The position numbers were made by a program, and so were the translations under genes. 32,492 nt of DNA from Wenyingzhuangia sp. 2_MG-2023 (GTDB lineage Bacteria > Bacteroidota > Bacteroidia > Flavobacteriales > Flavobacteriaceae): the NCBI RefSeq assembly GCF_030548295.1, contig NZ_JAUOSB010000024.1:1-32492 (forward strand), written 5' to 3'. Within the stretch, counting starts at the first letter, position 1. Each line of letters starts with the position of its first letter. The notes under the pieces are model-generated. The model worked only from the letters and a program-made list of their open reading frames with translations, did not search any database and was not told the DNA's origin. Of this stretch, positions 13,405 to 31,098 are shown one piece after another.

Positions 13405-13977
13405 TTAAAAAAACAAAAGCTTAATTACAAACAATGTTACTATTCCATTAACACACCACAGGACAAAAGTTCTATTTATAGAAATTTTATTTGAAATAAA
13501 AATAAAACTTAAAAACAGCAAAACAATTAACAATTGAGCAATTTCAATCCCAACATTAAAACCAAAAAGAGGAACTAATATTGAATCCTCTTCAAAAAGC
13601 ATCATTCTTAAATAATTAGAAAAACCTAAACCATGAATCAAGCCAAAAACCAATAAAACCCCGTAAGTAAAAAGACTAGATTGTTGTTGTTTTGTTTTTA
13701 AAAACAAACATTTAAAATTGTAAAGACAAGAAATCATAATGGTAATAGGAATCAACGTTTCTACCAAACCGGAATTTATGCGAACAATATTAAACCCCGA
13801 AAGAACAAGTGTTATGCAATGACCAACTGTAAAAACCGTAACAACTCCTAATAACTTTCTCCAGTCTTTAAACGTGTAAAACAAACTAAAAGAGATAATA
13901 AAACACAAATGATCTAGACCGTTGATGTCTAAAATATGAGAAATCCCTTGATTTGTATAAAACAGAAAATCATTCAT
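13405..13977 (-). CDS. HupE/UreJ-family membrane protein
   Basis: This 190-residue protein has about six membrane helices. Its histidine-bearing motifs identify the HupE/UreJ (UreJ_2) family: GLDHLCFIISF (about 20-30), FTVGHCITLVLSG and FGLIHGLGFSNYL, plus FNVGIEIAQLLIV. Characterised relatives move nickel or cobalt across the inner membrane for hydrogenase or urease. Neither enzyme is encoded here, and the Bacteroidota branch lacks proven substrates. It overlaps the DUF6702 gene by 8 nt and is translated after it. A role in metal or small-cation handling together with DUF6702 is inference. Confidence 0.85.
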   Translation of the reverse strand: MNDFLFYTNQGISHILDINGLDHLCFIISFSLFYTFKDWRKLLGVVTVFTVGHCITLVLSGFNIVRINSGLVETLIPITIMISCLYNFKCLFLKTKQQQSSLFTYGVLLVFGLIHGLGFSNYLRMMLFEEDSILVPLFGFNVGIEIAQLLIVLLFLSFIFISNKISINRTFVLWCVNGIVTLFVIKLLFF

Positions 13978-14470
13978 AAAAGTCTCTTTTTTTTTGCCTC
14001 AAATTAAATCGATTTTCTTTTCCGTTGTATTTGAGATGATTTACTTGATTAGAAAACACCTCAAAAAACAAGGTGTTGTACAATTCAAATGATTTTTTTT
14101 CATCAAACCTTTTTTCTGATTTACAAGTTACAATCAACACCTTATGGTCTTCATCAAATGATGTTTCTATTATTTTAAACTCTATTTTTTCATCCTTTTG
14201 ACGTACGTATAGGTTTGAGTTTAAATACCTCTGTAAACATTGTATTCCATTGGTTTCTTTGGACGAAAAATCGACATTTACCAAGCGATATTTGTTTTTT
14301 ATTTGCTCCGTAAGATCGTCTAAAAAAAACTTGGTTGTAATTTCAGCATGATGATCTTCTGTTAGTATCATTTTACTAAAAGTCATTTTTAAAGGATGAT
14401 ATGCTGCCTGTGTACTGACTCCAGAAATAACTAAGAGCAGTGCTATTACTATTTTTAAAAACAATTTCAT
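13970..14470 (-). CDS. DUF6702-family exported protein
   Basis: This 166-residue protein has an N-terminal signal peptide (MKLFLKIVIALLLVISGVSTQA) with cleavage near residue 22. The mature part starts AYHPLKMTFSKMIL, typical of DUF6702, and continues with LTEDHHAEITTKFFLDDL. It is basic at the end (RFNLRQKKRDFYE) and has no lipobox, so it should be periplasmic. Its stop overlaps the start of the HupE/UreJ-like gene, which implies coupled production of a periplasmic and a membrane partner. The role of DUF6702 is not known. Confidence 0.8.
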   Translation of the reverse strand: MKLFLKIVIALLLVISGVSTQAAYHPLKMTFSKMILTEDHHAEITTKFFLDDLTEQIKNKYRLVNVDFSSKETNGIQCLQRYLNSNLYVRQKDEKIEFKIIETSFDEDHKVLIVTCKSEKRFDEKKSFELYNTLFFEVFSNQVNHLKYNGKENRFNLRQKKRDFYE

Positions 14471-14488
14471 TGTATACTTTTTTAATAA

Positions 14489-14524
14489 AGAACCTCTCTT
14501 TTAAATAGTTAAAAGAGAGGTTCT
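14489..14524 (-). terminator. Perfect 16-bp hairpin between phosphatase and DUF6702 genes
   Basis: AGAACCTCTCTTTTAA (14489-14504) pairs perfectly with 14509-14524 around a four-base loop ATAG. On the minus strand the stem is followed by TTTATT, so it should end transcription of the phosphatase gene. It falls within the 75-bp gap before DUF6702, leaving little room for a separate promoter, so DUF6702-HupE may depend on read-through. Confidence 0.75.
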
Positions 14525-14545
14525 AAAATTATGTGTATTTCAGTG

Positions 14546-17500
14546 CTACTTTAACAAAAGTTTTAATGTAGTTACTGTTCCCTCTGTATAAACATTTACA
14601 ACGTACATACCTCTATCCATAGATTTTAAATAAATAGTTGTTGTTGTTTGGTTGATTTGTTTTTGTGTTTTTACCAACTGCCCATTCATGTTATACACTT
14701 CTACCTTTTCAATTTCTGAAGCAGCTTTTACATAAGCAATCCCTAATGATGGATTTGGATAAATAACTATTTTATTATCATCAGATTTAATTTCTTTTAC
14801 ACCTAAAGTATCTTCTATTTTAAAATAAAATCTATCAGAAATTTCATTGTATCCATCATTTTCAAACAGCGCTAAGTAATAATCCCCTTCTGAATTTACC
14901 CCAGCCAAAGTAACACTTCCCGTAACTAAATTACTACCATCTACGTATTTCCAAGTCGTAGAATTTACGTCTCCAGGAGTTTGTCCTTCTGCATAAACAC
15001 CTATCCAGTCTTTAGAATTTCCAGGCCCATTGCTGTAATTCACCACCAAAGCATCACCAGAAACTACACTGGTAACATTCATGGTAGCGGTAGGTTTTAC
15101 ATTTTCTATAAAACTAACACGATTTGAAATTTCTTCTCCCGTTGTCTGGTCTATAACTACTGCAAAATAAGTCCCTCCTGTTTTTGGCAATACATTCTCA
15201 TCACCCAAAGCCCCCTCAGCACCATTTATCACAACATCTCCGTTTACAAGATCTTTCAAACTTATATACGTTACAAATGCATCTGTTGCAGGGTTGTTTC
15301 CATTTTCAAACACAGCTAAATAATCTTCATTATCACCAGAACCATCTGCAATGGTAAATGTTAAAGCTTCTCCAATAAAATTGTCAGATTGTAAAATACT
15401 TATAGTAACTACTTTATTTCCAACTTGGAACTTTGTTCGGTTTCCAACTTCATTGTAAGAGCTTTCTGTGTGATAAACTGCATAATACAACCCTTCTTCA
15501 AACTTTCCAAAATTGAACGTTTTAAGATCACTTACAACTTCCATTTTTGCTAACAACTTGTTAGAACTTGGTTCATCTCCATTGGCATAAATACCAATCC
15601 AATCTTGTACATCAGACAAACCTCCATCAGTTAGCGTTACCACCACATCATCTTCTTCTGAAAAAACTTCTTTTGTTGGTTCTAATATTGGAGTTCCTCT
15701 TACTACAAAAGAAACTCTATCTCCTAGTTCATTGTATCCATCATTTTCAAAAATACCAGCAAAATATTCTCCACCGTTAGACAATTCAAAAGTTCTCAAT
15801 CCATTTGCTTCTCCATCAATGTACTGGTACTTCTGAGAGGTAACACTTCTAGGGTTTTGTCCATTTTTATAGATTCCAATCCAATCTTTTGTATTACCTG
15901 GTGCATTTACAAAATTGATATCAAAATTCTCTCCTTCATTTACAATCTTACGATCCATGTAAATAGCAGCACTCTTTGTAATGGTAATAGGAATTGCATT
16001 TGAAACCTGCGTGTAACTATCGTTGGTAAACATTGCCAAGTAATAAGAACCTTCTAACGGCAATTGATTTGCCCCACCATGACTAAAATCTTTTCCTGTA
16101 ATGGTTGTGGTTCCTGTTGTCAATCCTCCAAAATACTTGTAAGTCCATAAATTATCTGTTCCGGCAGGTTTTCCATCATTTACAATAACTCCAATGTAAT
16201 CTTTTTCAATACCAGGACCATCTTTAAAAGCAATTGTAATAGGTTCTCCTTCAGAAAACGTGGTTTTAGACGTTGTTAATTCTGCAATTTGCTCACCTAC
16301 TTGAAAAGCAATTTGCTCTCCTGCCGTTAAATCACTTCCTTTTACATGGTAAACTGCAAAATAATAAGCATTTGAAAGTCCACTAAATGTTAAATTCTGT
16401 GTACTTGTATCAACATTCAAACGTTTCACTTCGTTACCATCTCCTATTTCACTTCCCATCTTGTAAATCCCAACCCAATCGTTATCATTGTTTGGATGGT
16501 TGGTAAAACTAATTGTTACATCTTCTCCTTCGTTATATTTTGTTTTATCCGATGTCAATTCTGGAATTTTTCCAACCCAAAAAGTAACACGTTTTACAAT
16601 TTCTTCATATCCATCATTGATGAAAAAGGATGCATAATAAATTCCGCTTTCAGACAATTTAAATGTTTTTACTCCACTTACACTTCCATTAACATATTGG
16701 TAAGCTGTAGACCCATTGGTTCCTGGCTCATTTCCTTCTTTGTAAACTCCAATCCAATCTTTGCTACCTCCTTTTCCATTGATAAACGTTATATCAATGT
16801 TTTCATTGGTTTCAAAAGAAGATTTCTCCAAATAAATTAATGGAGTACCATCCGTACTTCCTTCTACAGTAAAAGAAATTGCATCAGACCAAGGACTCCA
16901 ACCTAAATTGGCATCTCTATGTCTTACACGGGTATAATAGGTTCCATTGCTTAAAAAATATTCTGGAATGGTGTAATTTAAAATTCCATTACCTAAACCA
17001 ATATTCACAGTTGCATCTGTAGTAACACCGGGACCATAATAATTATCTACATGTCTAAAAGAATCTATATCGATAATTGAAAAATCACTTGTAGAAGCTA
17101 CTTGAAACTGCGTAGAATTTAAAACCTCTGACGTTGATGTTTGGTATTCTGAACTATTTAACGTGTAAGGTAAGTTGATTGTGCCTACAATAGGATTGGT
17201 AATTTCTGGTTTTTCAGGAGTTGCTACTTCTCTTTTGTAAGTAAACTCATCTAACAATTCATTGTCTTTAGATGTTGTCAAGCTACCAATAGTGTACGAC
17301 TTTACGTTCATTTCATTTGTAACATTGTTGATTTCTATAAATTGATAAGCAAAATCTGACCATGTACCTTGTGTTTCCTCTCTATCATCTTCATTACTAC
17401 TGTCTCCCCAATATTGAGGCCATGCAGTACCACCTGAAATGATATGGTAACTATTGTGATTTTTAAACTGTCCACGAGCATACAAATGGTGATGTCCTGC

Positions 17501-18490
17501 CATGTGCAACACATATTTATCTGTAGTATGTAATTTTGGCAATGCACTGTTTGCAAACCAAGATGAATAATCGTTTGAATATTGTTCTGCTTCATAAGGA
17601 CGATGACCAATAGAAATAATCCATTTTACCTTGTCATCTGTCTTAGCATAATTTACAACACTCTGCAACCAATTTTCCTGTGTTGTATTGGTCAATTCAG
17701 AATCTACAACCAAAAACAAGACATTTGCCATCTGATACGCATAATAACGTTCTGTTCCAGAATTGATTCCTCCATAAGACCAATCGTCGTCTAAAATAAA
17801 GTGATCATAATACGCTTGCATAGCACCATTTTGATACGATCCACCATAAGTTTCATGATTACCAACCGCAGTAATTAAAGGTAAATCTGGAGTAATTGGG
17901 CTTGTTTTTTGGAAGTGAATTTCTTCATAATGTTGAAGTTTCCCCAAATCTACTTGATCTCCATCATTCATAATCAAGTTAAAATTATCTGCCAAAGGCG
18001 TTCCATACAAAGCTTCTGCTTTTGCTTTTGCAGCCAAAACCAATTCGTTGTATTTGTAGTAAGGAGCTCCATCGTAATTTAATATTTGATGATCACCTAA
18101 AGCAATAAATCGCAAAACACCACTATCATCTCCCAATGCTGGAGGTGTTTTAAAGTAATGAATTTCAGAAGTGTCTGTTTCTCCACTACTTGCCTTGTAG
18201 TAGTAACCTGTATCAGGACTTAAACCTTCTAATTTTACTGTATGGTAGTGGTAAGGTGTTGAGTAATCCGAATCTTTGGGCTCTAAATCTTCGGTAACTC
18301 CCAAAGCTTTCTGAGCTAAGTTTGTAGACTCTGTTCCGTAAACAACTTCAGGATTATTTCCGTTGTCCGTTTTCCAATTCACATAAATAGAATTGGGTTT
18401 TGCAGCCTGTAAATAGGGCTTAATTGTTTGCGCACAGCCTATACCTATAAAAAGTAAAAAGGCAGCACAAAAAAGTACTAGTTTCTTCAT
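14546..18490 (-). CDS. Giant secreted purple-acid-phosphatase-like metallophosphoesterase with T9SS sorting domain
   Basis: This 1314-residue protein would hydrolyse phosphate esters outside the cell. It has a signal peptide (1-20) and a purple-acid-phosphatase N-terminal Fn3-like domain (about 22-116). A calcineurin-like domain (about 125-400) has all metal motifs: GDH (132-134), GD (177-178), GNHE (210-213), GHRP (295-298) and GHHH (332-335). An Fn3-like domain (about 424-543) ends in TRVRHRDANLGWSPWSD. Seven DWIGIY-type domains follow, at about 550-640, 641-732, 733-839, 840-931, 932-1024, 1025-1130 and 1131-1227. The end is a type A type IX sorting domain (1228-1314, IVIYPNPSLG... and RGMYVVNVYTEG), which targets it to the surface or medium. 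The substrate is unknown; phosphate scavenging is likely. No Pho-like site was recognised upstream. Confidence 0.9.
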   Translation of the reverse strand: MKKLVLFCAAFLLFIGIGCAQTIKPYLQAAKPNSIYVNWKTDNGNNPEVVYGTESTNLAQKALGVTEDLEPKDSDYSTPYHYHTVKLEGLSPDTGYYYKASSGETDTSEIHYFKTPPALGDDSGVLRFIALGDHQILNYDGAPYYKYNELVLAAKAKAEALYGTPLADNFNLIMNDGDQVDLGKLQHYEEIHFQKTSPITPDLPLITAVGNHETYGGSYQNGAMQAYYDHFILDDDWSYGGINSGTERYYAYQMANVLFLVVDSELTNTTQENWLQSVVNYAKTDDKVKWIISIGHRPYEAEQYSNDYSSWFANSALPKLHTTDKYVLHMAGHHHLYARGQFKNHNSYHIISGGTAWPQYWGDSSNEDDREETQGTWSDFAYQFIEINNVTNEMNVKSYTIGSLTTSKDNELLDEFTYKREVATPEKPEITNPIVGTINLPYTLNSSEYQTSTSEVLNSTQFQVASTSDFSIIDIDSFRHVDNYYGPGVTTDATVNIGLGNGILNYTIPEYFLSNGTYYTRVRHRDANLGWSPWSDAISFTVEGSTDGTPLIYLEKSSFETNENIDITFINGKGGSKDWIGVYKEGNEPGTNGSTAYQYVNGSVSGVKTFKLSESGIYYASFFINDGYEEIVKRVTFWVGKIPELTSDKTKYNEGEDVTISFTNHPNNDNDWVGIYKMGSEIGDGNEVKRLNVDTSTQNLTFSGLSNAYYFAVYHVKGSDLTAGEQIAFQVGEQIAELTTSKTTFSEGEPITIAFKDGPGIEKDYIGVIVNDGKPAGTDNLWTYKYFGGLTTGTTTITGKDFSHGGANQLPLEGSYYLAMFTNDSYTQVSNAIPITITKSAAIYMDRKIVNEGENFDINFVNAPGNTKDWIGIYKNGQNPRSVTSQKYQYIDGEANGLRTFELSNGGEYFAGIFENDGYNELGDRVSFVVRGTPILEPTKEVFSEEDDVVVTLTDGGLSDVQDWIGIYANGDEPSSNKLLAKMEVVSDLKTFNFGKFEEGLYYAVYHTESSYNEVGNRTKFQVGNKVVTISILQSDNFIGEALTFTIADGSGDNEDYLAVFENGNNPATDAFVTYISLKDLVNGDVVINGAEGALGDENVLPKTGGTYFAVVIDQTTGEEISNRVSFIENVKPTATMNVTSVVSGDALVVNYSNGPGNSKDWIGVYAEGQTPGDVNSTTWKYVDGSNLVTGSVTLAGVNSEGDYYLALFENDGYNEISDRFYFKIEDTLGVKEIKSDDNKIVIYPNPSLGIAYVKAASEIEKVEVYNMNGQLVKTQKQINQTTTTIYLKSMDRGMYVVNVYTEGTVTTLKLLLK
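14810..16843 (-). repeat. Seven tandem DWIGIY-type domains in A-B-C-A-B-C-A order
   Basis: These domains are residues 550-1227 of the phosphatase. Each is about 90-107 residues long and has a (D)W(I/V)G(I/V)Y core (DYIGVI and DYLAVF in the C types). A types (1, 4, 7) end like FENDGYNE. B types (2, 5) share YYAVYH/YYFAVYH. C types (3, 6) are longer, with an insertion ending in LP.(E/T)G.YYLAMF-like sequence. The three-domain unit repeats every 290-292 residues. Confidence 0.85.
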
Positions 18491-20005: not shown

Positions 20006-20401
20006 TTATTTCCCCATCTCCATTTCATGATCGTACTGACAACAACCTGGCAACTCTGTATAAGCCTCTCCACTTGCTGTTACTTTTTCGGTATCGTAAC
20101 CCGATGCTGCAATGGCATTATGAATGGCGATTTCATTGGTTATTGTTGGGTCTAAAACCACTTCTATTTTCTTTTCATTTACATCCCAATTTGCACTAGC
20201 TATCCCCTCTACTCCGTTTACAGCTTTCTCAATGGTTTGTTTACACATGGCACAATTTCCTCGTACGCCAAAATTTAATGTTGCCAATTCTCCATGCTGA
20301 GATACTGTACTTGTAACTTTTTTTTCTGATTTAACTCCTTCTTTACAGCCTGCTAAAGCTAAAATGGCAACTACTGCAATACTTAAAATTCCTTTTTTCA
20401 T
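20006..20401 (-). CDS. Heavy-metal-associated (HMA) domain lipoprotein
   Basis: This 131-residue protein has a lipoprotein signal with lipobox LAGC (Cys19) and an HMA ferredoxin-like domain (about 40-112). Its metal-binding pair is Cys50/Cys53 (GNCAMCKQTIEKAVNGVEGI), in place of the usual MTCxxC. The C-terminus has a further Cys pair and acidic/His residues (LPGCCQYDHEMEMGK), which could also bind copper. It should be anchored in the envelope and could pass or buffer Cu(+) next to the CusB-type adaptor, whose gene is 15 bp upstream. It is the last gene of the copper island. Confidence 0.85.
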   Translation of the reverse strand: MKKGILSIAVVAILALAGCKEGVKSEKKVTSTVSQHGELATLNFGVRGNCAMCKQTIEKAVNGVEGIASANWDVNEKKIEVVLDPTITNEIAIHNAIAASGYDTEKVTASGEAYTELPGCCQYDHEMEMGK

Positions 20402-20416
20402 TGTTTCTATATTTTA

Positions 20417-22189
20417 CTATTTGCTTTCTATAACTGCTTGTATTTCTCCACAATTTGGCATTTTTGTTCCTAAATATGGATTTTTAATTCCTTCATAAGC
20501 ACTCAACCAATAAGCTCCTTTGTTACCGTCAGACATTGGACAGAATTGCTGGAATACTTTTTCATTAATTCCAAAGACTTCAACTGCTTTTGTCAAATGT
20601 ATAGACAAACCTCTGAATGACATTCTTTGTTCCTCAATATTTTCTGTAGTAGAAATAGAATGTGTTGCTATTTTTATTTTTCTCATCAATAACATCCATT
20701 CTGTCTGTAAACTTGCCTTTTTTAACAATTTTATGTTTATATGATCCAATTTTCCCAACAAAGTTTTAGCCTCTTTATGTGCTGTTTTGGCATCGTCTAC
20801 CACCAAAGCATCTTTCAATTTGATGTAGGAATGATATACCTTGTTTAACTGATTTTTAAACGTTTCTGACACATTCAGATTCATCAACTCATTAGTCATT
20901 TTTTCAGCATCTGTATCCATTTCTGTTGTCATCTCCATATATCCTGTCGTTGTTTTTCTTATTTTTTGATTCATCATCGACTTTTTCCCTTGCAATTGAG
21001 CAGCTGCATCTACAGTAAAAGTTCCTTTTGTAACAACCTCATCGCCGATAGAAAGTCCATGTAATACCTCATAAGAACTTCCCTTTTTAACACCCAAAAC
21101 TATTTCTCTCATTTCAAAAACAGGTTCCTCCAATTTTGCTTTCACATACACTACCGATCGTTTCCCTGTCCACAAAACTGCCGTAGCAGGAATTAAGAAT
21201 GATGTTTGATCATGCGCTAATTCACTTTCAAAATTCCCTTCAACAAACATTCCTGGTTTTAAAATTCCTTCAGTATTTTTTAACACAGCTCTTAATTTTA
21301 CTGTTCGTGTTTTTAAGTCTAACACAGGATCTATAAAATCTACTTTTGCCTCAAAATAAGTATGGGCAACAGCGTTTGTTTTTACGTTTATTTTTTGTCC
21401 CTTCTTAAACAGATGGATTTGTTTTTCATACACATCAAAATTTGCCCAAACCGTAGTAAGATTTGCTATTTTCAACAAAGCTTGTCCTTGCTTCACAGCA
21501 TTACCCTCTTCTACTAATTTTTCCAAAACAGTTCCAGAAACCGTTGCATATACATGGAAATTTTCTTTTACCTTTTTTGTAGTTTCTATTTCATGGATTT
21601 GATTTTCGGAAAGTTTCCACAATTTCAACTTGTTTCTAACAGCATTGTACAATGCAGGTTGTGACTTTTTTAAAGCCGATGCCGTAATTAACTCCTGTTG
21701 TGCAGCATACAATTCTGGTGAATATATGGTCGCTAGCAACTGTCCTTTCTGTATTTTTTCGCCTGTAGCATTTACATTCAAGCGCTCAATTCTCCCTGAA
21801 AAATAACTAACCTGAACTGTATTGGTTTCTTCATTTTCAACAATTTTCCCAGATAACTTTATGTTGTTATCCGCATCAATTCCATCACCAACAACCGTTG
21901 TTTCTATGTTTGCCAAGGCCATTGCATTTTTACTAAGGCTAAATTGATCAACAGACAAACCCTCTGTACCCATGTCCGCTGGAATCAAATCCATACCACA
22001 AATAGGACAATCACCAGGTTCTGTTTTTATTATTTGTGGATGCATAGCACAGGTCCACAAGTGCTCCTTTTCTACAAATTTATCATGATCTTGCTTTGTT
22101 TCTTTTTTAGATTGCTCTCCTCCCATCAACCATCCTCCTAAAAGAAAACCGAAGACTAAGAGAACTACATAAATACTGTATTTTTTCAT
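20417..22189 (-). CDS. cusB: CusB-type RND efflux adaptor with HMBD and DUF3347 domains
   Basis: This 590-residue periplasmic adaptor would link the CusA-type pump to the outer-membrane channel. It has an N-terminal membrane anchor (1-22). A heavy-metal-binding domain follows (44-70) with the pair CAMHP...CPICGMDL. The HlyD-like barrel-sandwich body (about 88-400) shows YFSGRIERLNVNATGEKIQKGQ and FHVYATVSGTVLEKLVEEGN. The C-terminal DUF3347 domain (438-590) contains FCPMSDGNKGAYWLSAYEGI and MPNCGE. The same DUF3347 domain forms the separate lipoprotein at 25375-25938. It starts four bases after the CopA stop. Carrying HMBD at one end and DUF3347 at the other is a Bacteroidota-type design. The symbol follows the family. 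Confidence 0.9.
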   Translation of the reverse strand: MKKYSIYVVLLVFGFLLGGWLMGGEQSKKETKQDHDKFVEKEHLWTCAMHPQIIKTEPGDCPICGMDLIPADMGTEGLSVDQFSLSKNAMALANIETTVVGDGIDADNNIKLSGKIVENEETNTVQVSYFSGRIERLNVNATGEKIQKGQLLATIYSPELYAAQQELITASALKKSQPALYNAVRNKLKLWKLSENQIHEIETTKKVKENFHVYATVSGTVLEKLVEEGNAVKQGQALLKIANLTTVWANFDVYEKQIHLFKKGQKINVKTNAVAHTYFEAKVDFIDPVLDLKTRTVKLRAVLKNTEGILKPGMFVEGNFESELAHDQTSFLIPATAVLWTGKRSVVYVKAKLEEPVFEMREIVLGVKKGSSYEVLHGLSIGDEVVTKGTFTVDAAAQLQGKKSMMNQKIRKTTTGYMEMTTEMDTDAEKMTNELMNLNVSETFKNQLNKVYHSYIKLKDALVVDDAKTAHKEAKTLLGKLDHINIKLLKKASLQTEWMLLMRKIKIATHSISTTENIEEQRMSFRGLSIHLTKAVEVFGINEKVFQQFCPMSDGNKGAYWLSAYEGIKNPYLGTKMPNCGEIQAVIESK

Positions 22190-22193
22190 TTCG

Positions 22194-24689
22194 TTATATT
22201 TTAACCTTCTTCAATCTTAACGCATTTGCAATAACAGAAACTGAACTAAAACTCATGGCCAAAGCAGCAATCATTGGGGAGAGCAACAAACCAAATACAG
22301 GATACAAAATTCCCGCAGCAATAGGCACTCCAAAAACGTTGTAGACAAATGCAAAAAACAGGTTTTGTTTGATGTTTTTCACAACGTTATGACTTAAGTT
22401 TTTAGCTTTTAAAATACCTTGTAAATCTCCTTTTACCAACGTAATAACTGCACTTTCTATAGCAACCCCAGTACCTGTTCCCATAGCAATTCCAATATCC
22501 GATTGTGCCAAAGCGGGTGCATCGTTGATACCGTCTCCAGCCATGGCTACAATCTTACCTTCTTTTTGTAATTTTTCAATTTCATTCAACTTGTCATCGG
22601 GTAAACACTCTGCTTTGTAATGTGTTAAACTCAACTGTTTTGCAACCGCTTTCGCCGTGTTTTTATTGTCTCCTGTAAGCATGATAACTTCTACACCAGC
22701 ACGTTGAAGTTCATCAATTGCTTTTTGACTTGTTTTTTTAATCGCATCAAAAATAGTTACATATCCTACCACACTATCTGCAACAGCAATATAAGAAACT
22801 GTTTTACCTTGGTCCTGTTCAGCTAGTACCTTTTCAGATACTTTTTGTGGAATAGTAATGGAAAGTTCATCTAATAATTTTCTATTTCCTAAAGCTATTT
22901 TTTTAGTTTTTACAGTTCCTACAATACCTTTACCAGCAATGGTCTCAAAATTGTTTACGGTTGCAATTGTGCTCTTTTTTAATTTTCCATAATTGACAAT
23001 TGCCGTTGCCAAAGGATGCTCACTGTGTTGATTCAAAGAGCTAATATAAGCCACCAAATCAGACGTTTCTATAGCTGCTACTGCGACTACTTTTTCTACA
23101 GAGGGTTTTCCTTCAGTAACCGTTCCTGTTTTGTCTACAATTAAAACATCTATCTTATCCATTCTTTCCAAAGCTTCCGCATTTTTAATCAATACTCCAG
23201 ATTGTGCTCCTTTTCCTATTCCCACCATTACAGACATTGGAGTTGCCAGTCCCAAAGCGCATGGACAAGCTATAATTAAAACCGCAATGGCATTTACAAA
23301 AGCATAAACATAAGCAGGTTCCGGCCCATAAACAGCCCAAACAACAAACGTAATTAAAGAAACAATCAACACTGTTGGTACAAAATATTTAGCTATTTTA
23401 TCTGCTAATTTTTGAATAGGAGCTTTAGATCTACTCGCGTTGTTTACCATCTGTATGATTTGAGAAAGTAAAGTTTCTGATCCTACTTTTTCTGCTTTCA
23501 TTACAAATGATTGGTTTCCATTTATGGTTCCTGAACTCACTTTGTCTGTTACCTTTTTAGTTACTGGAATGGGCTCTCCTGTAATCATCGACTCATCTAC
23601 GCTGCTCTGTCCTTTTTCTACACTTCCGTCAACTGGAATTTTTTCACCTGGTTTGACACGTAACAAATCTCCTTCTTTAATTTTGTCGATAGCAATTATT
23701 TTGTCTTCTCCATTTTCTACCAAAGTTGCCGTAGCAGGAACTAATTTTAACAATTCCTTTATCGCTCCACTCGTCTGACTGTGTGCTTTTGCCTCTAACA
23801 ATTGCCCCAACAATACCAATGTTAAAATAACCGTTGTAGCTTCAAAATAAACAAACACATTTCCTCCTTCAGTTTTAAATTCTTGAGGAAATATTTGTGG
23901 AAATAACAAAGCAGTAACACTAAAAATCCACGCAATACCCGATCCTATTCCAATCAATGTAAACATGTTTAGATTTCTTGTTTTAAAAGAAGTCCATGCA
24001 CGTTTAAAAAACATAGCTGTTGCATAAAAAAGCACGGGAATTGACAACCCTAACTGAATCCAATTCCATATTTTTTGATCTAAAACAGTATACAACGGAT
24101 TGTTTGGAATCATTTCTGACATGGCTATTAAAAAAATAGGGAACGTAAACCCAACAGCTATCCAAAATTTGTTTAATAGTTTTCGATAAGTCTTTTCCTC
24201 CTCAGAAACATCTGCTTTCATTGGAACCAAATCCATTCCACAAATAGAACAAGATCCCGGATCTTCTTCTACAATTTCAGGATGCATAGGGCACGTCCAT
24301 TCATTTGATGACGTTGAATCCATGTTTTGTTCCTCCACCAAATCCATTCCACAAACAGGACAATCCCCTGCTTTCTCATACGTTTTATCACCTTCGCAAT
24401 GCATAGGACAATAAAACACACCTGTTCCCTTTCCTTTTGATTTTTCTTCTTTTTTGGGTTTAGAATGATGATGCTTCTTGTCTTTATAAATTTCATACCT
24501 ATCCCCATTTTTTTGCAACGCTTCTTGAAATCTTTCCAAAGGAATATGTGCATCCATTTCTATAGATGCCTCTGCCTTTTCTAAATCAACCTTTGCAGCA
24601 ACAACACCGGTTACTTTATTCAATATTTCTTCTACGTGTCCACGACAACCATTACAAGTCATTCCGTGTATGTGATAAGTATGTTTCAT
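22194..24689 (-). CDS. copA: Cu(+)-exporting P1B-1 ATPase CopA with HMA and two HMBD domains
   Basis: CopA pumps cytosolic Cu(+) across the inner membrane at the cost of ATP. The 831-residue protein has an HMA domain with GMTCNGC (9-15), a His/Lys-rich linker ([10 protein letters not shown]), two HMBD domains (92-118 and 131-155) with CPMH...[16 protein letters not shown], then eight membrane helices. Catalytic marks are the actuator TGEP (370-373), CPC (475-477), the phosphorylated DKTGT (Asp519), the SEHP His-Pro motif (557-559), and GDGINDAP from 718. The YN of helix 7 and MSFSSVSV of helix 8 mark the Cu(+) class. The ATG at 24689 ([12 protein letters not shown]) is preferred to an earlier frame start because the HMA domain begins there. 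The adaptor gene follows after 4 bp. Confidence 0.94.
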
Positions 24690-24712
24690 GTTTCTCGTAT
24701 TTGATGATACTC

Positions 24713-24720
24713 CAAAAATA
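24713..24720 (-). promoter_or_regulatory. Putative internal -7 element (TATTTTTG) for copA
   Basis: On the minus strand TATTTTTG matches TAnnTTTG exactly and ends 23 bp before the copA ATG, inside the 73-bp gap after the regulator gene. It could give copA-cusB-HMA a separate transcript. No well-spaced -33 element is evident. Confidence 0.35.
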
Positions 24721-24762
24721 GAAATTAGCACGAGTCTTTATTTGTACAATTAGGATGAATGC

Positions 24763-25320
24763 TTACACAATTTGGTCTCTTGATTTTCTATCCCATTTTC
24801 TCAAATCTTTAAATTGAGTCATAGAGATTCCTGTTGTATTTTTAAATTGTTTTGCCAAATGACTGCTTGTTTTATAATTCAAACTATACGCTATTTCCGA
24901 AAAATTTAATTGCCCTAACTGAATCAGTTCTTTAACTTTTTCAACTTTTAAATTAATGATATATTTTTCTATTGTAATACCTTCAGACTTGCTGAATATT
25001 TTACTTAATGCCGAAAATGTCTTTCCTAATTCAGTGGACAGAAATACAGAAATTCCTTCTGTATCATTTTCTTCTATTTTCTGAATGATTTTTGTTTTGA
25101 TTTGTTCAATTAGAGAATCTAACTCTCCTTTTATAAGCTCAAACCCATTCTTTTTTAATGCTTGTTCAAGTTGTTTGTAATCTCTAAACTCATTCCCTTC
25201 AATCCTTACTTCTCCGAGTTCTACCTGTTTAATCTCATACCCATTTTCTTCGAGTATTTGTTGAACAATGGTTTTGCAACGATCACAAACCATATTTTTG
25301 ATGTGAAGTATTTCACTCAT
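24763..25320 (-). CDS. One-component regulator: HMA-like domain plus AraC helix-turn-helix
   Basis: This 185-residue protein begins with an HMA-like fold (about 1-65) that has a single pair Cys12/Cys15 in KNMVCDRCKTIV. A short linker follows, then an AraC-type double HTH (about 100-172) with EYIINLKVEKVKELIQLG-like helices and the signature FSEIAYSLNYKTSSHLAKQF...GISMTQFK. There is no cupin domain, so the Cys pair is the obvious metal-sensing site. It lies inside the copper island, between the DUF3347 lipoprotein and CopA, and is its likely regulator. The ATG at 25320 is preferred to an upstream in-frame TTG (25341). Whether it activates or represses is unknown. Confidence 0.85.
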   Translation of the reverse strand: MSEILHIKNMVCDRCKTIVQQILEENGYEIKQVELGEVRIEGNEFRDYKQLEQALKKNGFELIKGELDSLIEQIKTKIIQKIEENDTEGISVFLSTELGKTFSALSKIFSKSEGITIEKYIINLKVEKVKELIQLGQLNFSEIAYSLNYKTSSHLAKQFKNTTGISMTQFKDLRKWDRKSRDQIV

Positions 25321-25374
25321 TATTTCTATTGAATTTTGCAATAAGTTATTTTAACATTTACGTAGCAACTTTTT

Positions 25375-25938
25375 TTAGTTGATTTGTTTCTTCACAGCAC
25401 CACAAGTCATCATTTTTGCTCCAAAATAAGGATTTTTAATGTCCTTAACTTCACTAAACCAATATGCTCCTTTAAACTCATTTGCCATAGGACAAAAATC
25501 TTGATACAAAGTTTTGCTAGTTCCTAAAAGTGCTATCAAATCACTAATATCTGATGTTAAATCTATAAAATGCTCTCTTTGGTGTGCTATTTCGCTTGTG
25601 GAAATATGTACTGCGTGCTCTTTGGCACTATTGTAAATCTTCATGTATTTTTCATGAGTATTTCCGTCCAATTGTTTCATGTCAAATTCCGTAAAAGCGG
25701 TGTTTAACTGATTGGCTCCTTTGGTTACAGCTTCTTTATCGTCTGCCACCAAACCATTTTTAAGCTGAAGATATGCCTCAATAATTTGAGTTGTTTCCTT
25801 GTTTTCAGAATGGGTAGTTTCAATAGATTTGTTATTTTCTACTGTTGTATGATGTTCTTCTTTTTTGTTGTCCTTACAAGACGTTAAGCTTAAAAAACTC
25901 ATTGCTAAAATTGCGAATGTGATTGTTGATTTTCTCAT
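25375..25938 (-). CDS. DUF3347-domain lipoprotein
   Basis: This 187-residue protein has a lipoprotein signal with lipobox LTSC (Cys21), a His/Glu/Lys-rich linker (KKEEHHTTVENN) and one DUF3347 domain (about 48-187). The conserved FCPMANEFKGAYWFSEVKDI and MMTCG segments match those at the C-terminus of the CusB-type adaptor (FCPMSDGNKGAYW and MPNCG). The Cys-Pro-Met and Met-x-x-Cys groups are plausible Cu(+) ligands. The product should be envelope-anchored, where it could buffer or deliver copper to the adaptor. It starts 11 bp after the TolC-type gene. The copper-binding idea is inferred from residues and context. Confidence 0.85.
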   Translation of the reverse strand: MRKSTITFAILAMSFLSLTSCKDNKKEEHHTTVENNKSIETTHSENKETTQIIEAYLQLKNGLVADDKEAVTKGANQLNTAFTEFDMKQLDGNTHEKYMKIYNSAKEHAVHISTSEIAHQREHFIDLTSDISDLIALLGTSKTLYQDFCPMANEFKGAYWFSEVKDIKNPYFGAKMMTCGAVKKQIN

Positions 25939-25949
25939 TTTTATTTGTT

Positions 25950-27263
25950 TTATTTTTGAATTAAATAATTGATTATAACTGTTTGTATATAAAAACTTTT
26001 TATAGATGCTACTTGTTGTAACTGAAACTTTAATTTCAGTTCTTGAACGTCTAAAACCTCCTTAAAGTCTACACGATTTGTTTCGTAACTTTTCATTAAA
26101 ATAGTTTCGGCATGCACTGCTTGTTCTAAATTTTTTAATTGAGTTTCATAATTTATTTTTGCAGAAATCCGATCTCGAATCGCTTTTTCCAAACGTGACT
26201 CAAGTGCATTGGATCGTTCTTTTTTTTGCATTTTAATTTCCTTTTCTTGCAATTCATTTTGTTTTGTTTTTGACTTGTATTTTTTATTAAAAATAGGGAT
26301 AGATACCGCCAACATAGGCATCAAAACATCTTTTCCATTGTCTACAAAACTCATCTCTGGTCGTTTTTCAATATTGATATAATCAATCCCAAAACCAATC
26401 AAAGGACTACTTTCTTTTTGATTCAACAATTCAGATTGCTCTACAGACTCATACAATTTATCGTATTTTAACAATTCTGGATGCAATGCCAATTTTTCAA
26501 CCTTAAGTTCTTCTAACTCTTTTGGAATTGTCAACTTACTCATGACTTGAATTTCTATTTCACTATCTCTATTTAACAACTTGTTAAAACTCGCCTGCTC
26601 AGCCAAAAATTGTTGTTTCAAAACTTTTTCCAATTGCTCCAATTCATTTTTTCTCATTTGCAAACGCAACACATCTACCACTGTAGCTTTTCCAACTTCT
26701 ACAGCATTTAATGCTAAAGTTTCGTAGGTTTTTAACAATTCGCTATTCTCTATCAACACTATTTGTTGGGCTTTGTTTGCATACAAATTGTAATACGATT
26801 GAGAGATAGATGCCATCAACTTTCTTCTGGCAATTACAATATCTTGGTATTTTGTATCTGCCAAAGAACTGACATAATTCTCTCTAGAAGTTATGGTTCC
26901 AAACCAAGGTAGCATTTGTTTTGCAGAAACTTTAAAACGCTGTGCTCCCGTTCTAGTTTCTGGTTGAAGCACAAAATATCCCAAACCAAATTCTGTATTG
27001 GGAAGCGTATTTACTTCATGTATCTTTTCTTTGGCAATTCCATATTGCAGTGCAATTTTTTGGATTGCAGGATTGTTTTTCAAACCTAAATGGATGTACT
27101 CATTTAAACTTTGAGCTTTTACATTTTGAAAAGTCATCAAAAAAAACAGTAGCAATACACTAGAAACTAGAGAAAAGAATTCCAAATGCTGCTCCACATA
27201 TGTCGTTTTAAACTTTGGATTTGTACTATTTGATTGTATCATCTTGTTTCTTTTAAACTTCAT
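25950..27263 (-). CDS. TolC/CusC-type outer-membrane efflux protein
   Basis: This protein (about 437 residues) would form the trimeric outer-membrane channel of the copper RND pump. A hydrophobic signal (SLVSSVLLLFFLMTFQNVKA) is followed by SLNEYIHLGLKNNPAIQKIA, the usual start of an OEP repeat. Two long coiled-coil helical stretches follow, with heptad-like EQLEKVLKQQF and the mirrored second half containing MPMLAVSIPIFNKKYKSK. The ATG at 27263 overlaps the cusA-type gene by 11 bp; an alternative ATG at 27242 would give a 10-bp gap, and the signal peptide fits either. The DUF3347 lipoprotein starts 11 bp later. There is no lipobox, unlike E. coli CusC. Confidence 0.88.
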   Translation of the reverse strand: MKFKRNKMIQSNSTNPKFKTTYVEQHLEFFSLVSSVLLLFFLMTFQNVKAQSLNEYIHLGLKNNPAIQKIALQYGIAKEKIHEVNTLPNTEFGLGYFVLQPETRTGAQRFKVSAKQMLPWFGTITSRENYVSSLADTKYQDIVIARRKLMASISQSYYNLYANKAQQIVLIENSELLKTYETLALNAVEVGKATVVDVLRLQMRKNELEQLEKVLKQQFLAEQASFNKLLNRDSEIEIQVMSKLTIPKELEELKVEKLALHPELLKYDKLYESVEQSELLNQKESSPLIGFGIDYINIEKRPEMSFVDNGKDVLMPMLAVSIPIFNKKYKSKTKQNELQEKEIKMQKKERSNALESRLEKAIRDRISAKINYETQLKNLEQAVHAETILMKSYETNRVDFKEVLDVQELKLKFQLQQVASIKSFYIQTVIINYLIQK

Positions 27264-30200
27264 TATTAGACTCCAATACATTCTTTTTTATTTCCACTTC
27301 TTTTTTCCAGCTAAACAGAACGGGAACTAAAAAATAAGAAGTAATGTCAATTACCATTCCCCCAAAAATGGGTATTGCCATCGGAATCATGATATCACTC
27401 CCTTTTCCTGTTGAAGTTAAAACGGGAAGCAAAGCCAGAACAGTAGTTACTGTTGTCATCAAACAAGGCCTGATTCTTTTTCCAGCAGCTTCTAATGTAG
27501 CCTTACGAATTGCTTTTGTGTCTACAGGAATTTCTTTGTCAAAAGTTCGTGTAAGATAAGTTGCCATAACCACTCCATCGTCTGTGGCAATTCCAAACAA
27601 AGCAATAAATCCAACCCAAACGGCAACACTTAAATTGATGGTTTGCAGGTTGAACAACGTTCTTAAATTTTCTCCAAAAAGACTAAAATTTAAAAACCAT
27701 TCTTGACCATACAACCAAATCATGATAAAACCACCTGCAAACGCAACTGATATACCCGTAAAAACCATTAAAGTGGTAGACACAGATTTGAACTGAAAAT
27801 ACAGAATTAAGAAAATAATCATCAATGCCAATGGCACCACAACGGATAGTGTTTTTTCTGCCCGTAACTGATTTTCATAAGTACCTGTAAATTGGTAATT
27901 GATTCCTTTGGGTACTGCCAAATCCCCAGATTCAATTTTTTGAAGAATCAATTCTTGTGCATTTTCTACTACATTTACTTCTGCAAAACCGTCTAATTTA
28001 TCAAACAAAACATAGCCTATTAAAAAAGTGTCCTCACTTTTAATAACCTGAGGTCCTTGTTCATATCTAATTGTAGCCAATTCACTCAATGGAACAGAAT
28101 TTCCATCTCCAACAGGAACATAAATACGATTTAAATCTTCTGGATTGCTACGCAATTCTCTAGGATATCTAACACGCATACCATAACGCTCCCTCCCCTC
28201 TACTGTTTGAGTAAGAACCATACCACCAACCGCAACTTTTAATGTGTTTTGAACGTCTTCTACAGAAATACCATAACGTGCTATTTTTTGACGATCCAAA
28301 TCAATCAACAAATAGGGTTTTCCGACAATTCTATCAGCAAAAACAGCTTCCGATTTTACTCCTTCAGCTTCTTTTAAAATTTTCTCTAACTGAAGTCCAA
28401 ATCTTTCTATTTGTTTTAAATCTTGTCCTTTTATTTTTATCCCCATAGGAGCACGCATCCCTGTTTGCAACATTACCAAACGAGTTTCAATGGGTTGTAA
28501 TTTGGGTGCCGATGTAATACCTGGCAATTTAGTTACCCTAATAATTTCTTTCCAAATATCATTCGAACTTTTTATTTGAGGTCTCCAATTTCGGTAAAAC
28601 GCTCCTTCTTCATCCTCAATCAACTGTGAATTTAATACGTTTGTTTCCAAATCATTTGTGGTTATTTTTTGATCAGAAAACACACTCAACCTTTCACTTC
28701 CATCATAAGCTAATTTTCCGTCTTTTAAAACAAAAACACCTTGCTTATTTACCTTATAACACTGACGTATTCCCTTAGTATTCAACATGTATTCTGGTTT
28801 GTATTGAATCATGTTTTCATACATAGACAACGGAGCAGGATCTAATGCAGATTCAGTTCTTCCTGCCTTACCAACAACCGTTTTTATTTCTGGAATACTT
28901 GCAACTGCCATGTCTAGTTGCTGCAAGACTCTCTTATTTTCTTCTACTCCAGCATGAGGCATAGATGTAGGCATCAATAAAAATGAACCTTCATTCAAAG
29001 AAGGCATAAATTCTTTTTCTGTATTTTTCATAATAACAAAACCACAGATAGTTATGGTAGCAGGAATGATGATAAACAACCACTTATGATCTAATGCCCA
29101 TTGCAAAATTTGAAGATAATAATATTGAAAAACTTTGAAAACACCTAGAAACCCAAAACAGATGGTTGCAACAAAAACAAGATTGATCAAAATACTTTTA
29201 TCAACTCCCAAAGGCCTCCAGTAGGTTGCCAAAAGAACTACAATTGCAAAAGTAGACACCACAATATTCATCACATTTCTAGACAAACAAACCCGAAAAG
29301 AGAACACTGAAAAGCTTACTTCTTCTTTTTTTAAATAGCAACTTGCTAGAGCTATCGAACCAAAAATCACTAAAACCAAACCTAGCCAATAGCCATAAAA
29401 TAAGGCTAAAAATCCAGTAAAAATTAAAAGAGCATTTGATAAATATTGAACTTTTTTCTGAAAAGTTCTTTTTCTAAAAATCATGGCTGCAAATGGTGGA
29501 ATGATGAACAACGAAATGATTAATGCAGCAATCAATGCAAAGGTTTTTGTAAAAGCCAAGGGCCTGAATAGTTTTCCTTCAGAGCCAATCATGGTAAATA
29601 CGGGCACAAAACTAATAATGGTTGTCATTACTGCGGTAACAATAGCTCCTGAAACTTCTGATGTTGCCTTGTAAACAATACGATCCATACTACGTTTTGA
29701 GTTTTGTGGATCTACTACCAAATCTGTCTTGTTATTCTTGTTTTCCTTTAGTTGATCACGGGCTTCATCCAAATGTCTAATGATGTTTTCTGATAGAATG
29801 ACACCAACATCTACCATGGTTCCAATGGCTATTGCAATTCCAGACAAAGCCACAATATTGGCATCTACATTAAAAAATTTCATTGCAATAAAAACCATCA
29901 ATACCGCAACAGGTAGCAATCCTGAAATCAATACAGAAGCTCTCAAATTAAACACCATTACAATAATGACCAAAATGGTAATTAATATTTCCAAAACCAA
30001 TGCTTCATTTAGAGTTCCCAAGGTTTCTTGAATCAATTCGGTTCTATCATAAAAAGGAACAATAGTTATTTGAGAAATACGACCATCTTTTAATGTTTTG
30101 GTAGGAAGTCCCGCTTTTAGTTCCTTTATCTTAGTTTTTACATTGTTGATGACTTCCATTGGATTGGCTCCATATCTAGCCACTACAACTCCCCCAACGA

Positions 30201-31098
30201 CCTCTGCTCCTTCTTTATCTAAAAGACCTCTTCGTGCAGCAGGTCCAAGTGAAACTTTAGCTATATCTTTCAATTTGACAGCAACGTATTCTTTAGAAGA
30301 AACCACTGAATTTTCAATATCTTCTATGGATTTTACATAACCTAAACCACGAACAAGGTATTCAACTTTGTTCATTTCAATAGTTTGAGCACCAATATCT
30401 TTGTTACTTTCTTTTACCGCTTTTACTACATCTTGTAACTGAATGTGGTACTGTCTCATCAACTCAGGATCTACATCTATTTGATATTCTTTTACATATC
30501 CTCCAATAGATGCAACTTCTGAAACACCACTTGCAGCAGAAAGTGCATATTTCACATAATAATCTTGAATGCTTCTTAACTCTTGTAAATCCCAGCCTCC
30601 TGTAACATTTCCTTTGGCATCACGTCCTTCTAAAGTATACCAAAATATTTGCCCCAACCCTGTTGCATCAGGTCCTAAAGAAGGTTTTACTCCATCTGGA
30701 AGTAAACTGCCAGGCAACGAATTTAATTTTTCAAGAATGCGACTTCTGCTCCAATAAAACTCTATGTCCTCTTCAAAAATGATGTAAATACTAGAAAAAC
30801 CAAACATAGATGAACTACGAATTGTTTTTACACCTGGTATTCCCAATAATGAAGTTGTTAATGGATACGTAATTTGATCTTCTAGATCTTGAGGAGAACG
30901 TCCGTCCCATTTGGTAAATACAATTTGTTGATTTTCTCCAATATCTGGAATAGCATCTACAGCTACAGGATTGCTAGGCAAGAATCCCAATTCCCAATTG
31001 AATGGAGAATTTACAGCTCCCCATCCTACAAATAGAATAAAAAGTAAAATAGAAACCAGTTTGTTTTCTATGAAGAATTTGATGCTTTTATTCAACAT
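27253..31098 (-). CDS. cusA: CusA-type heavy-metal RND efflux pump, long form
   Basis: This inner-membrane proton-driven pump (1281 residues) belongs to the HME-RND class and exports Cu(+)/Ag(+). The start FNWELGFLPSNPVAVDAIPDIGENQQ is followed by GRSPQDLEDQITYPL. Three methionines align with the E. coli CusA copper triad (Met573, 623, 672): Met709 in FLLMPTSMP, Met759 in APLSMYENM and Met876 in RLVMLQTGM. The proton-relay Asp is Asp430 in GTMVDVGVILSEN. E. coli CusA has about 1047 residues; the extra length comes mainly from about three added membrane helices (about 553-660) and a longer periplasmic loop (about 771-835). The TolC-type gene overlaps its end; the HYC_CC_PP gene lies 107 bp upstream. 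Confidence 0.93.
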   Translation of the reverse strand: MLNKSIKFFIENKLVSILLFILFVGWGAVNSPFNWELGFLPSNPVAVDAIPDIGENQQIVFTKWDGRSPQDLEDQITYPLTTSLLGIPGVKTIRSSSMFGFSSIYIIFEEDIEFYWSRSRILEKLNSLPGSLLPDGVKPSLGPDATGLGQIFWYTLEGRDAKGNVTGGWDLQELRSIQDYYVKYALSAASGVSEVASIGGYVKEYQIDVDPELMRQYHIQLQDVVKAVKESNKDIGAQTIEMNKVEYLVRGLGYVKSIEDIENSVVSSKEYVAVKLKDIAKVSLGPAARRGLLDKEGAEVVGGVVVARYGANPMEVINNVKTKIKELKAGLPTKTLKDGRISQITIVPFYDRTELIQETLGTLNEALVLEILITILVIIVMVFNLRASVLISGLLPVAVLMVFIAMKFFNVDANIVALSGIAIAIGTMVDVGVILSENIIRHLDEARDQLKENKNNKTDLVVDPQNSKRSMDRIVYKATSEVSGAIVTAVMTTIISFVPVFTMIGSEGKLFRPLAFTKTFALIAALIISLFIIPPFAAMIFRKRTFQKKVQYLSNALLIFTGFLALFYGYWLGLVLVIFGSIALASCYLKKEEVSFSVFSFRVCLSRNVMNIVVSTFAIVVLLATYWRPLGVDKSILINLVFVATICFGFLGVFKVFQYYYLQILQWALDHKWLFIIIPATITICGFVIMKNTEKEFMPSLNEGSFLLMPTSMPHAGVEENKRVLQQLDMAVASIPEIKTVVGKAGRTESALDPAPLSMYENMIQYKPEYMLNTKGIRQCYKVNKQGVFVLKDGKLAYDGSERLSVFSDQKITTNDLETNVLNSQLIEDEEGAFYRNWRPQIKSSNDIWKEIIRVTKLPGITSAPKLQPIETRLVMLQTGMRAPMGIKIKGQDLKQIERFGLQLEKILKEAEGVKSEAVFADRIVGKPYLLIDLDRQKIARYGISVEDVQNTLKVAVGGMVLTQTVEGRERYGMRVRYPRELRSNPEDLNRIYVPVGDGNSVPLSELATIRYEQGPQVIKSEDTFLIGYVLFDKLDGFAEVNVVENAQELILQKIESGDLAVPKGINYQFTGTYENQLRAEKTLSVVVPLALMIIFLILYFQFKSVSTTLMVFTGISVAFAGGFIMIWLYGQEWFLNFSLFGENLRTLFNLQTINLSVAVWVGFIALFGIATDDGVVMATYLTRTFDKEIPVDTKAIRKATLEAAGKRIRPCLMTTVTTVLALLPVLTSTGKGSDIMIPMAIPIFGGMVIDITSYFLVPVLFSWKKEVEIKKNVLESNNEV

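Follow-up and report, generated by a model that had tools for sequence, protein, structure and literature searches.

A duplicated three-domain cassette as the probable origin of the seven-domain arm of a PAP-like metallophosphoesterase from Wenyingzhuangia

The window, the whole stretch of 32,492 nucleotides analysed from Wenyingzhuangia sp. 2_MG-2023, contains a gene (14546..18490, -) for a protein of 1314 aa in which a PAP-type metallophosphoesterase is followed by a seven-domain arm and a T9SS tail. The N-terminus resembles a signal peptide by eye, and residues 20–547 (16850..18433, -) comprise the PAP N-terminal domain (Pfam, residues 27–115), the catalytic domain and an Fn3-like domain, the last of these placed from the structural model and by eye. 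The array spans residues 548–1226 (14813-16849, -) and consists of seven domains of 92–107 aa each, here named D1 to D7. Residues 1243–1314 (14549..14764, -) match the type A T9SS C-terminal sorting domain (TIGR04183, 51.7 bits, cut-off 23), so that the arm stands between the enzyme and the type IX tail, as an earlier note on this DNA had proposed. These signals suggest that the phosphoesterase is secreted as a T9SS type A substrate, and because of its tail it is probably located at the cell surface. Tails of the TIGR04183 type were matched 56 times in the Wenyingzhuangia genome. A second T9SS-tailed protein of the same genome (G000:C183:3880-5391, +, a frame of 1140 aa) matched the catalytic part with an E-value of 1.1e-17 and gave no match to the array.

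The PAP N-terminal domain was identified with Pfam (PF16656) at 52.4 bits, against a cut-off of 30, and a Pfam scan of the catalytic region gave no match to a catalytic domain. Alignment of the catalytic region to a solved plant PAP was weak by sequence and better by profile. The best fold match of the enzyme model was wheat purple acid phytase (6giz, E 1.2e-19), and the five best PDB fold matches all represented one plant PAP; a model of the enzyme together with D1–D3 had a pLDDT of 82.8 and a pTM of 0.72. For the structure alignments redundancy was reduced first, leaving 36 of the 122 candidate relatives, and the residues D133, D178, N211, H212, H296, H333 and H335 were invariant in 37/37 aligned cassette proteins, that of Wenyingzhuangia included. 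All of these except H212 belong to the five-motif set which we take to be the PAP metal ligands other than tyrosine. The tyrosine of the PAP motif GDxxY is also a metal ligand and the source of the purple colour, and is present in the plant PAPs PPD1 (3zk4) and wheat phytase, which share the PAP fold with the protein described here. The equivalent position in Wenyingzhuangia is occupied by Asp181 (GDQVD; codon starting 17950, -), as it is by Asp in all 37 aligned proteins, and because Asp181 replaces the tyrosine ligand the enzyme is called PAP-like rather than a purple acid phosphatase. The fold and the active-site residues are consistent with the Wenyingzhuangia protein being a phosphatase.

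The first block of the array consists of D1 (type A, residues 548–640, 16571..16849), D2 (type B, residues 641–732, 16295..16570) and D3 (type C with a long insertion, residues 733–839, 15974..16294), and the second block of D4 (type A, residues 840–931, 15698..15973), D5 (type B on a long branch, residues 932–1024, 15419..15697) and D6 (type C, residues 1025–1130, 15101..15418). The array ends with D7 (residues 1131–1226, 14813..15100), an A-type domain that lies outside the D1/D4 group; all seven are encoded on the (-) strand. These assignments were made from the domain alignment, the 49-domain tree and profile typing, with a count of conserved positions added for D6 and pair scores for D7. 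The earlier note had described seven DWIGIY domains, of which the number holds and the motif holds in part. DWIG-type motifs were found at residues 578, 671, 764, 869, 963, 1056 and 1161, in the order DWIGV, DWVGI, DYIGV, DWIGI, DWIGI, DYLAV and DWIGV, so that two of the seven (DYIGV and DYLAV) lack the DW pair. The features said to distinguish the types were confirmed: domains of the same type start 291–292 residues apart, the first, fourth and seventh domains have a common ending (FINDGYEE in D1, FENDGYNE in D4 and D7), D2 and D5 share an AVYH strand, and D3 and D6 share the long insertion.

Domains of the Wenyingzhuangia array that lie three places apart (lag 3) had a mean normalised similarity of 0.323, compared with 0.161 for lag 1 and 0.178 for lag 2. 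When all 105 possible groupings of seven domains into sets of three, two and two were ranked by mean within-group similarity, the grouping 1-4-7/2-5/3-6 ranked first both in Wenyingzhuangia and in Tamlana agarivorans. The T. agarivorans protein (L031) is 68% identical to that of Wenyingzhuangia over 1317 columns, and as the two are orthologues their rankings are not independent events. Since the orthologue carries the same seven-domain array, an assembly artefact was ruled out as the origin of the repeat.

Relatives were collected from a genome collection, of which 80 of 114 were kept (69 of the 80 titled Chryseobacterium), and from sampled genomes in searches that overlap each other and count the genome studied here. 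Matches were obtained in 4/99 sampled relatives, 44/395 genomes of the order and 12/395 of the phylum. The whole protein was matched in 31/299 genomes of the family, where three matches, the Wenyingzhuangia protein included, reach into the arm and the others end by about residue 565. None of six other genomes of the genus gave an array match, and one of them has an arm-less relative of 533 aa. A total of 104 distinct cassette proteins were obtained as loci, the order-wide search having yielded loci for part of its matches. Ninety-nine of these carry a single A-B-C cassette of three domains, three have four domains (Hahella L032 and L033 and the Opitutales MAG L034) and two, from Wenyingzhuangia and T. 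agarivorans, have seven. The three-domain proteins are mostly from Chryseobacterium, with others from Flavobacterium cerinum, Pedobacter, further Bacteroidota and one Verrucomicrobia MAG. Proteins from Chryseobacterium, F. cerinum and genome G568 (L112) have the same enzyme part and the same A-B-C order as the Wenyingzhuangia protein, but are about 910–945 aa long and lack both the second block and D7; an end resembling a T9SS tail was seen by eye in the single-cassette proteins L002, L003, L112 and L113. The L112 protein (932 aa, 56–57% identical) has one cassette with the same insertion in its C domain. Among 72,556 plasmid records only one matched, by a single domain, and spread of the cassette by plasmids was set aside; no PHROGs phage family matched at E up to 0.01.

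The 99 three-domain proteins served to train profiles for types A, B and C, from their first, second and third domains respectively, so that labels came from domain position and predictions from sequence. The Wenyingzhuangia domains were typed A, B, C, A, B, C, A (7/7) with margins of 18, 45, 41, 23, 15, 19 and 15 bits, and those of T. agarivorans likewise (7/7). The same typing was obtained from 98 training proteins with the closest relative removed, from 13 without Chryseobacterium, and from five taken as outside the order, one of which (L035) is an unplaced Bacteroidetes MAG. In a leave-one-out control, 39/39 domains were typed correctly (13 proteins, the fourteenth being a duplicate). In the three proteins with four domains, domains one to three were typed A, B, C (9/9); type A was not supported by the profiles for the fourth domains of the Hahella and Opitutales proteins, and their designation as A was dropped. 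An A-B-C profile of 284 positions, which includes block 1 of Wenyingzhuangia and T. agarivorans, matched block 2 in register over positions 3–281. The A-B-C-A-B-C-A pattern described in the earlier note is thus above chance in both orthologues, by the grouping rank and by the typing.

A tree built from only the seven domains was weak, recovering B (83/95) and neither A nor C, so that domains of relatives had to be added. The resulting tree of 59 domains placed B (90/96) and C (95/94) each on one side of a branch, with A as the remainder; the expectation of three clades was therefore borne out for B and C but not for A, which is not one clade. A second tree of 49 domains was built by dropping L053, L006, L033, L107 and L009 from the 16 proteins as near-duplicates or members of the same genus and adding L112 and L113, with the Hahella third-domain rows trimmed to 96 residues, as also in the count of conserved positions; here C was supported at 98/93 and B only at 74/95. 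Both trees, the 59-domain tree given first, recovered D1+D4 (97/84 and 90/81) and D2+D5 (98/93 and 100/95) as sisters and placed D3 and D6 inside the C clade (95/94 and 98/93). The array therefore has the marks of a multi-domain super-repeat, a similarity peak at lag 3 and block-wise sisters D1+D4 and D2+D5, with D3+D6 not recovered as sisters; a D3+D6 clade was not rejected (AU p 0.075), nor was a D1+D4+D7 clade, which had no support in the tree (p 0.144). In the 49-domain tree each Wenyingzhuangia domain pairs with its T. agarivorans orthologue (99–100), which places the duplication before the split of the two species. A tree in which neighbouring domains pair, named beforehand as the result that would speak against the pattern, was not obtained. 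Among the five neighbour clades tested, D1+D2 (p 0.016), D2+D3 (0.0018), D3+D4 (9e-8) and D4+D5 (0.0014) were rejected and D5+D6 was not (p 0.16), and neighbour pairing was discarded as the origin of the array in those four.

The trees and the relatives together agree with the block duplication of a three-domain unit claimed in the earlier note, the trimer being carried once by 99 of the 104 proteins. We assign a probability of roughly 0.7 to the anatomy given above and to the block duplication of an old A-B-C cassette. In the lineage of Wenyingzhuangia and T. agarivorans the sequences show a head-to-tail duplication of about 875 bases coding for A-B-C, which perhaps arose by unequal recombination inside the gene. 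Growth by single domains, with the likeness at lag 3 due to chance or convergence, would fit the missing A and C groups of the seven-domain tree and the surviving D5+D6 clade, but is made very improbable by the 1/105 grouping, the larger trees, the clade tests, the profile typing with its control and the insertion common to D3, D6 and the L112 C domain. The best single non-orthologous match of D5 is D1 rather than a B domain. The block duplication probably took place after the split from the single-cassette relative L112, which adjoins Wenyingzhuangia and L031 in a quick catalytic tree (98 SH-aLRT, with a long-branch warning for this group). There is a small chance that it predates this split and that L112 lost a block, returning to one cassette. 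This would account for D6 scoring 169 against the L112 C domain and only 118 and 113 against D3 of T. agarivorans and its own D3, and for D3 lying outside the group of D6 and the L112 C domain (91/91, 49-domain tree). However, in the same tree the L112 B domain falls outside D2+D5 (94/81 with L112) and D1+D4 stay together, while D6 is a long branch for which union with D3 was not rejected.

The single A that closes the array was taken in the earlier note to belong to this expansion, and D7 does type as A, but it falls outside D1+D4 in both trees and so may not be a truncated third block. After its orthologue, Wenyingzhuangia D7 scores best against the first domains of L035 (227), L034 (214) and Hahella (211), and the best matches of D4 are D1 of both species. 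Other enzymes also bear a lone A-type domain, so that D7 at the C-terminal end probably derives from an older or separate event. An arrangement A-[B-C-A]-[B-C-A] was also considered, which would have arisen from an A-B-C-A ancestor by duplication of B-C-A, or from three blocks by loss of the last B-C, with D7 as a direct copy of D4. It draws on the typing of D7 as A by 14.6 bits, a D4–D7 identity of 40%, a D4+D7 clade that was not rejected (p 0.311) and the existence of relatives with four domains; T. agarivorans D7, which after its orthologue scores best against the fourth domain of L034 (213), gives 192 against its own D4, about as much as against several first domains from other genera. We regard it as unlikely, because D1+D4 group without D7, the first domains of L035, L034 and Hahella outscore D1 and D4 as partners of Wenyingzhuangia D7, and the fourth domains of the Hahella and Opitutales proteins are not clearly of type A.

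The two blocks have diverged to different extents. Conserved positions were taken as those shared by 90% or more of 15 reference cassettes; of these, block 1 retains 12/13 in A, 13/20 in B and 19/21 in C, and block 2 retains 11/13, 13/20 and 11/21 respectively, in both species. Branch lengths in the 49-domain tree are 1.01 for D5 and 1.39 for D6, compared with 0.37 for D2 and 0.40 for D3, and the TNDSY motif is gone from D6. Block 1 stayed nearer to the ancestor, and block 2 changed rapidly in B and above all in C; the change in D6 is explained equally well by relaxed constraint and by a new contact. A working idea, suggested by the recruiting SKICH domain of INPP5K and the overhanging domain of PPD1, both described below, is that the cassette serves for recognition and spacing and would keep the enzyme close to phosphorylated material at the cell surface or beyond it. 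A second copy would then add reach from the tail, and the altered C domain might make another contact. The recognition role is put forward tentatively. Somewhat less probable is an inert spacer in which length alone matters and no domain binds, although the arm does stand between the enzyme and the T9SS tail and D5 and D6 diverged freely. The position-specific identity of A, B and C is kept across phyla, 14 diverse cassettes share 34 invariant columns, a degree of conservation that a spacer would hardly seem to require, and related domains occur on other phosphoesterases, all of which argue against a purely passive arm.

The arm is probably a string of Ig-like domains of a SKICH- or fn3_PAP-like type, and the domain family was examined with Pfam. 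SKICH (PF17751) matched the whole protein at 48.2 bits against a cut-off of 23.4, the best single domain, D2, reaching 20.8 bits, below the cut-off, and it matched the whole arms of L112, L003 and L032 at 37–39 bits. The Pfam entry for the Fn3-like domain from Purple Acid Phosphatase (fn3_PAP, PF17808) also matched the arm, with 34.6 bits for the whole protein against a cut-off of 33, 12–13 bits each for D1, D2 and D7, and no match for the other four domains. Profile searches reached the SKICH chains of CALCOCO2 and TAX1BP1 at E 0.04–0.3, ranked below Elongin-C chains. The model of the arm is nearly all strands (mean pLDDT 88.5, pTM 0.54), and its best 50 PDB matches by Foldseek were Ig-like arrays and large multi-domain proteins with an rmsd of at least 24.5 Å, with no SKICH structure among them. 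The whole-arm Pfam scores and the weak profile matches, which stand below Elongin-C, hint at homology to eukaryotic SKICH domains.

Related DWIG domains were also found on other proteins. In L198 (1168-2544, -) and L199 (351-1715, +) an Exo_endo_phos domain is followed by one A-type DWIG domain, the order seen in INPP5K, and the profiles favour A above B for this terminal domain, with margins of 28 and 25 bits. The group that holds these two genomes (g58) is probably Chryseobacterium, because its locus L009 and C. defluvii L053 have identical cassettes. A plasmid record of Eleftheria terrae (L197, 1317-3938, +) encodes a phosphocholine-specific phospholipase C. The DWIG domain near its C-terminus does not type clearly as either A or B, and the end of the protein weakly resembles a dockerin, with a score under the Pfam cut-off. 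Three consecutive DWIG genes lie in a Verrucomicrobia MAG (L091, 1855-7206, +), encoding a protein of 248 aa with two such domains, one of 602 aa with one, and a PAP-like protein with three. A FecR-domain protein (L178) bears a related domain too, and together with the two Verrucomicrobia MAG proteins besides the PAP-like one it indicates that the partner is not always a phosphoesterase. Speculatively, the DWIG/SKICH-like domain could be an old bacterial accessory module of phosphoesterases, present on three unrelated catalytic families (PAP-like, endonuclease/exonuclease/phosphatase and phospholipase C), which in the PAP-like line was frozen as A-B-C, a recognition unit that changes and is copied as a whole; INPP5K and other SKICH phosphatases of eukaryotes, like the extra domain of PPD1, would then be later uses. 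We consider this wider history less likely than not.

The catalytic fold of INPP5K and CIL-1 differs from the PAP fold, and these proteins have one SKICH domain and are not secreted, whereas the protein described here has seven domains and a T9SS tail. As in the whole-arm SKICH match found here, the phosphatase comes first and the SKICH domain follows, and according to the portion of the source available the SKICH domain after the 5-phosphatase is needed for recruitment to the ER, the plasma membrane and other sites (PMC8507493). The extra Ig-like domain of PPD1 is described, in the text accessible, as overhanging the active site with a proposed role in DNA selection (PMC4062093); it is single and N-terminal there, while the array in Wenyingzhuangia is C-terminal. 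Repeat arrays that grow by more than one domain at once are already known, nebulin adding seven and fibronectin 3 mostly four (PMC1553488, available part), and the A-B-C array is explained by its relatives. The super-repeats treated in that part are mainly eukaryotic, whereas the present one lies in a bacterial enzyme, has a unit of three domains and has unduplicated relatives at hand. It is a clean bacterial case: the array can be seen both before and after its duplication, and so can the different courses that the copies then took. In the literature searched, as far as the excerpts extend, nothing on point was found on bacterial SKICH domains or on such arrays, and the same literature contained no paper on SKICH together with a phosphoesterase. 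The results suggest that SKICH-like domains, known from the sources as excerpted mainly in animal autophagy receptors and lipid phosphatases, recur with bacterial phosphoesterases, and the A-B-C cassette is a testable unit for asking what such domains bind.

The genes downstream of the enzyme may be concerned with metal. The next gene encodes a DUF6702 protein (13970..14470, -; PF20420, 3.5e-17), a neighbour also present in L031 and L112, and overlaps by 8 bases with a conserved gene for a HupE/UreJ_2 membrane protein (13405..13977, -; PF13795, 3.7e-43). The order PAP-like gene, DUF6702, HupE/UreJ_2 on one strand is found in Wenyingzhuangia, L031 and L112, and in Hahella L032 and L033 a HupE/UreJ_2 protein of 410–416 aa lies one gene further on (PAP-x-HupE). 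HupE occurs within 2.5 kb of 3/73 cassette proteins with at least 2 kb of downstream sequence (L031, L032 and L033), so that among the loci compared the metal link is limited to two lineages; the addition of Wenyingzhuangia and L112, which have shorter downstream sequence, brings the HupE-linked cassette proteins to five. In the part of PMC12537917 available, the DUF6702 family has a metal-sequestering member, one DUF6702 protein is a tight binder of Ni, Co and Cu, and the term nickel permease is used for HupE/UreJ-2 domains. Both families of that metal-capture system are direct neighbours here too, but the DUF6702 neighbours named in the accessible text are an M1 peptidase and HAD rather than a PAP-like enzyme (PMC12537917). 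The DUF6702 and HupE/UreJ genes could handle metal, possibly for the PAP-like enzyme. The enzyme gene is separated from DUF6702 by a hairpin of 16 pairs at 14471-14545 (-), with a folding energy of -22.6 kcal/mol (z -6.6 relative to shuffled sequences), which speaks against one transcript; promoter and terminator scans performed no better than on shuffles, and this hairpin was not among their calls. Elsewhere in the window a heavy-metal efflux cluster (20006-31098, -) encodes an HMA protein, a CusB-like HlyD protein with DUF3347, a P-type ATPase, an AraC regulator, a second DUF3347 protein, an OEP protein and an AcrB-type transporter.
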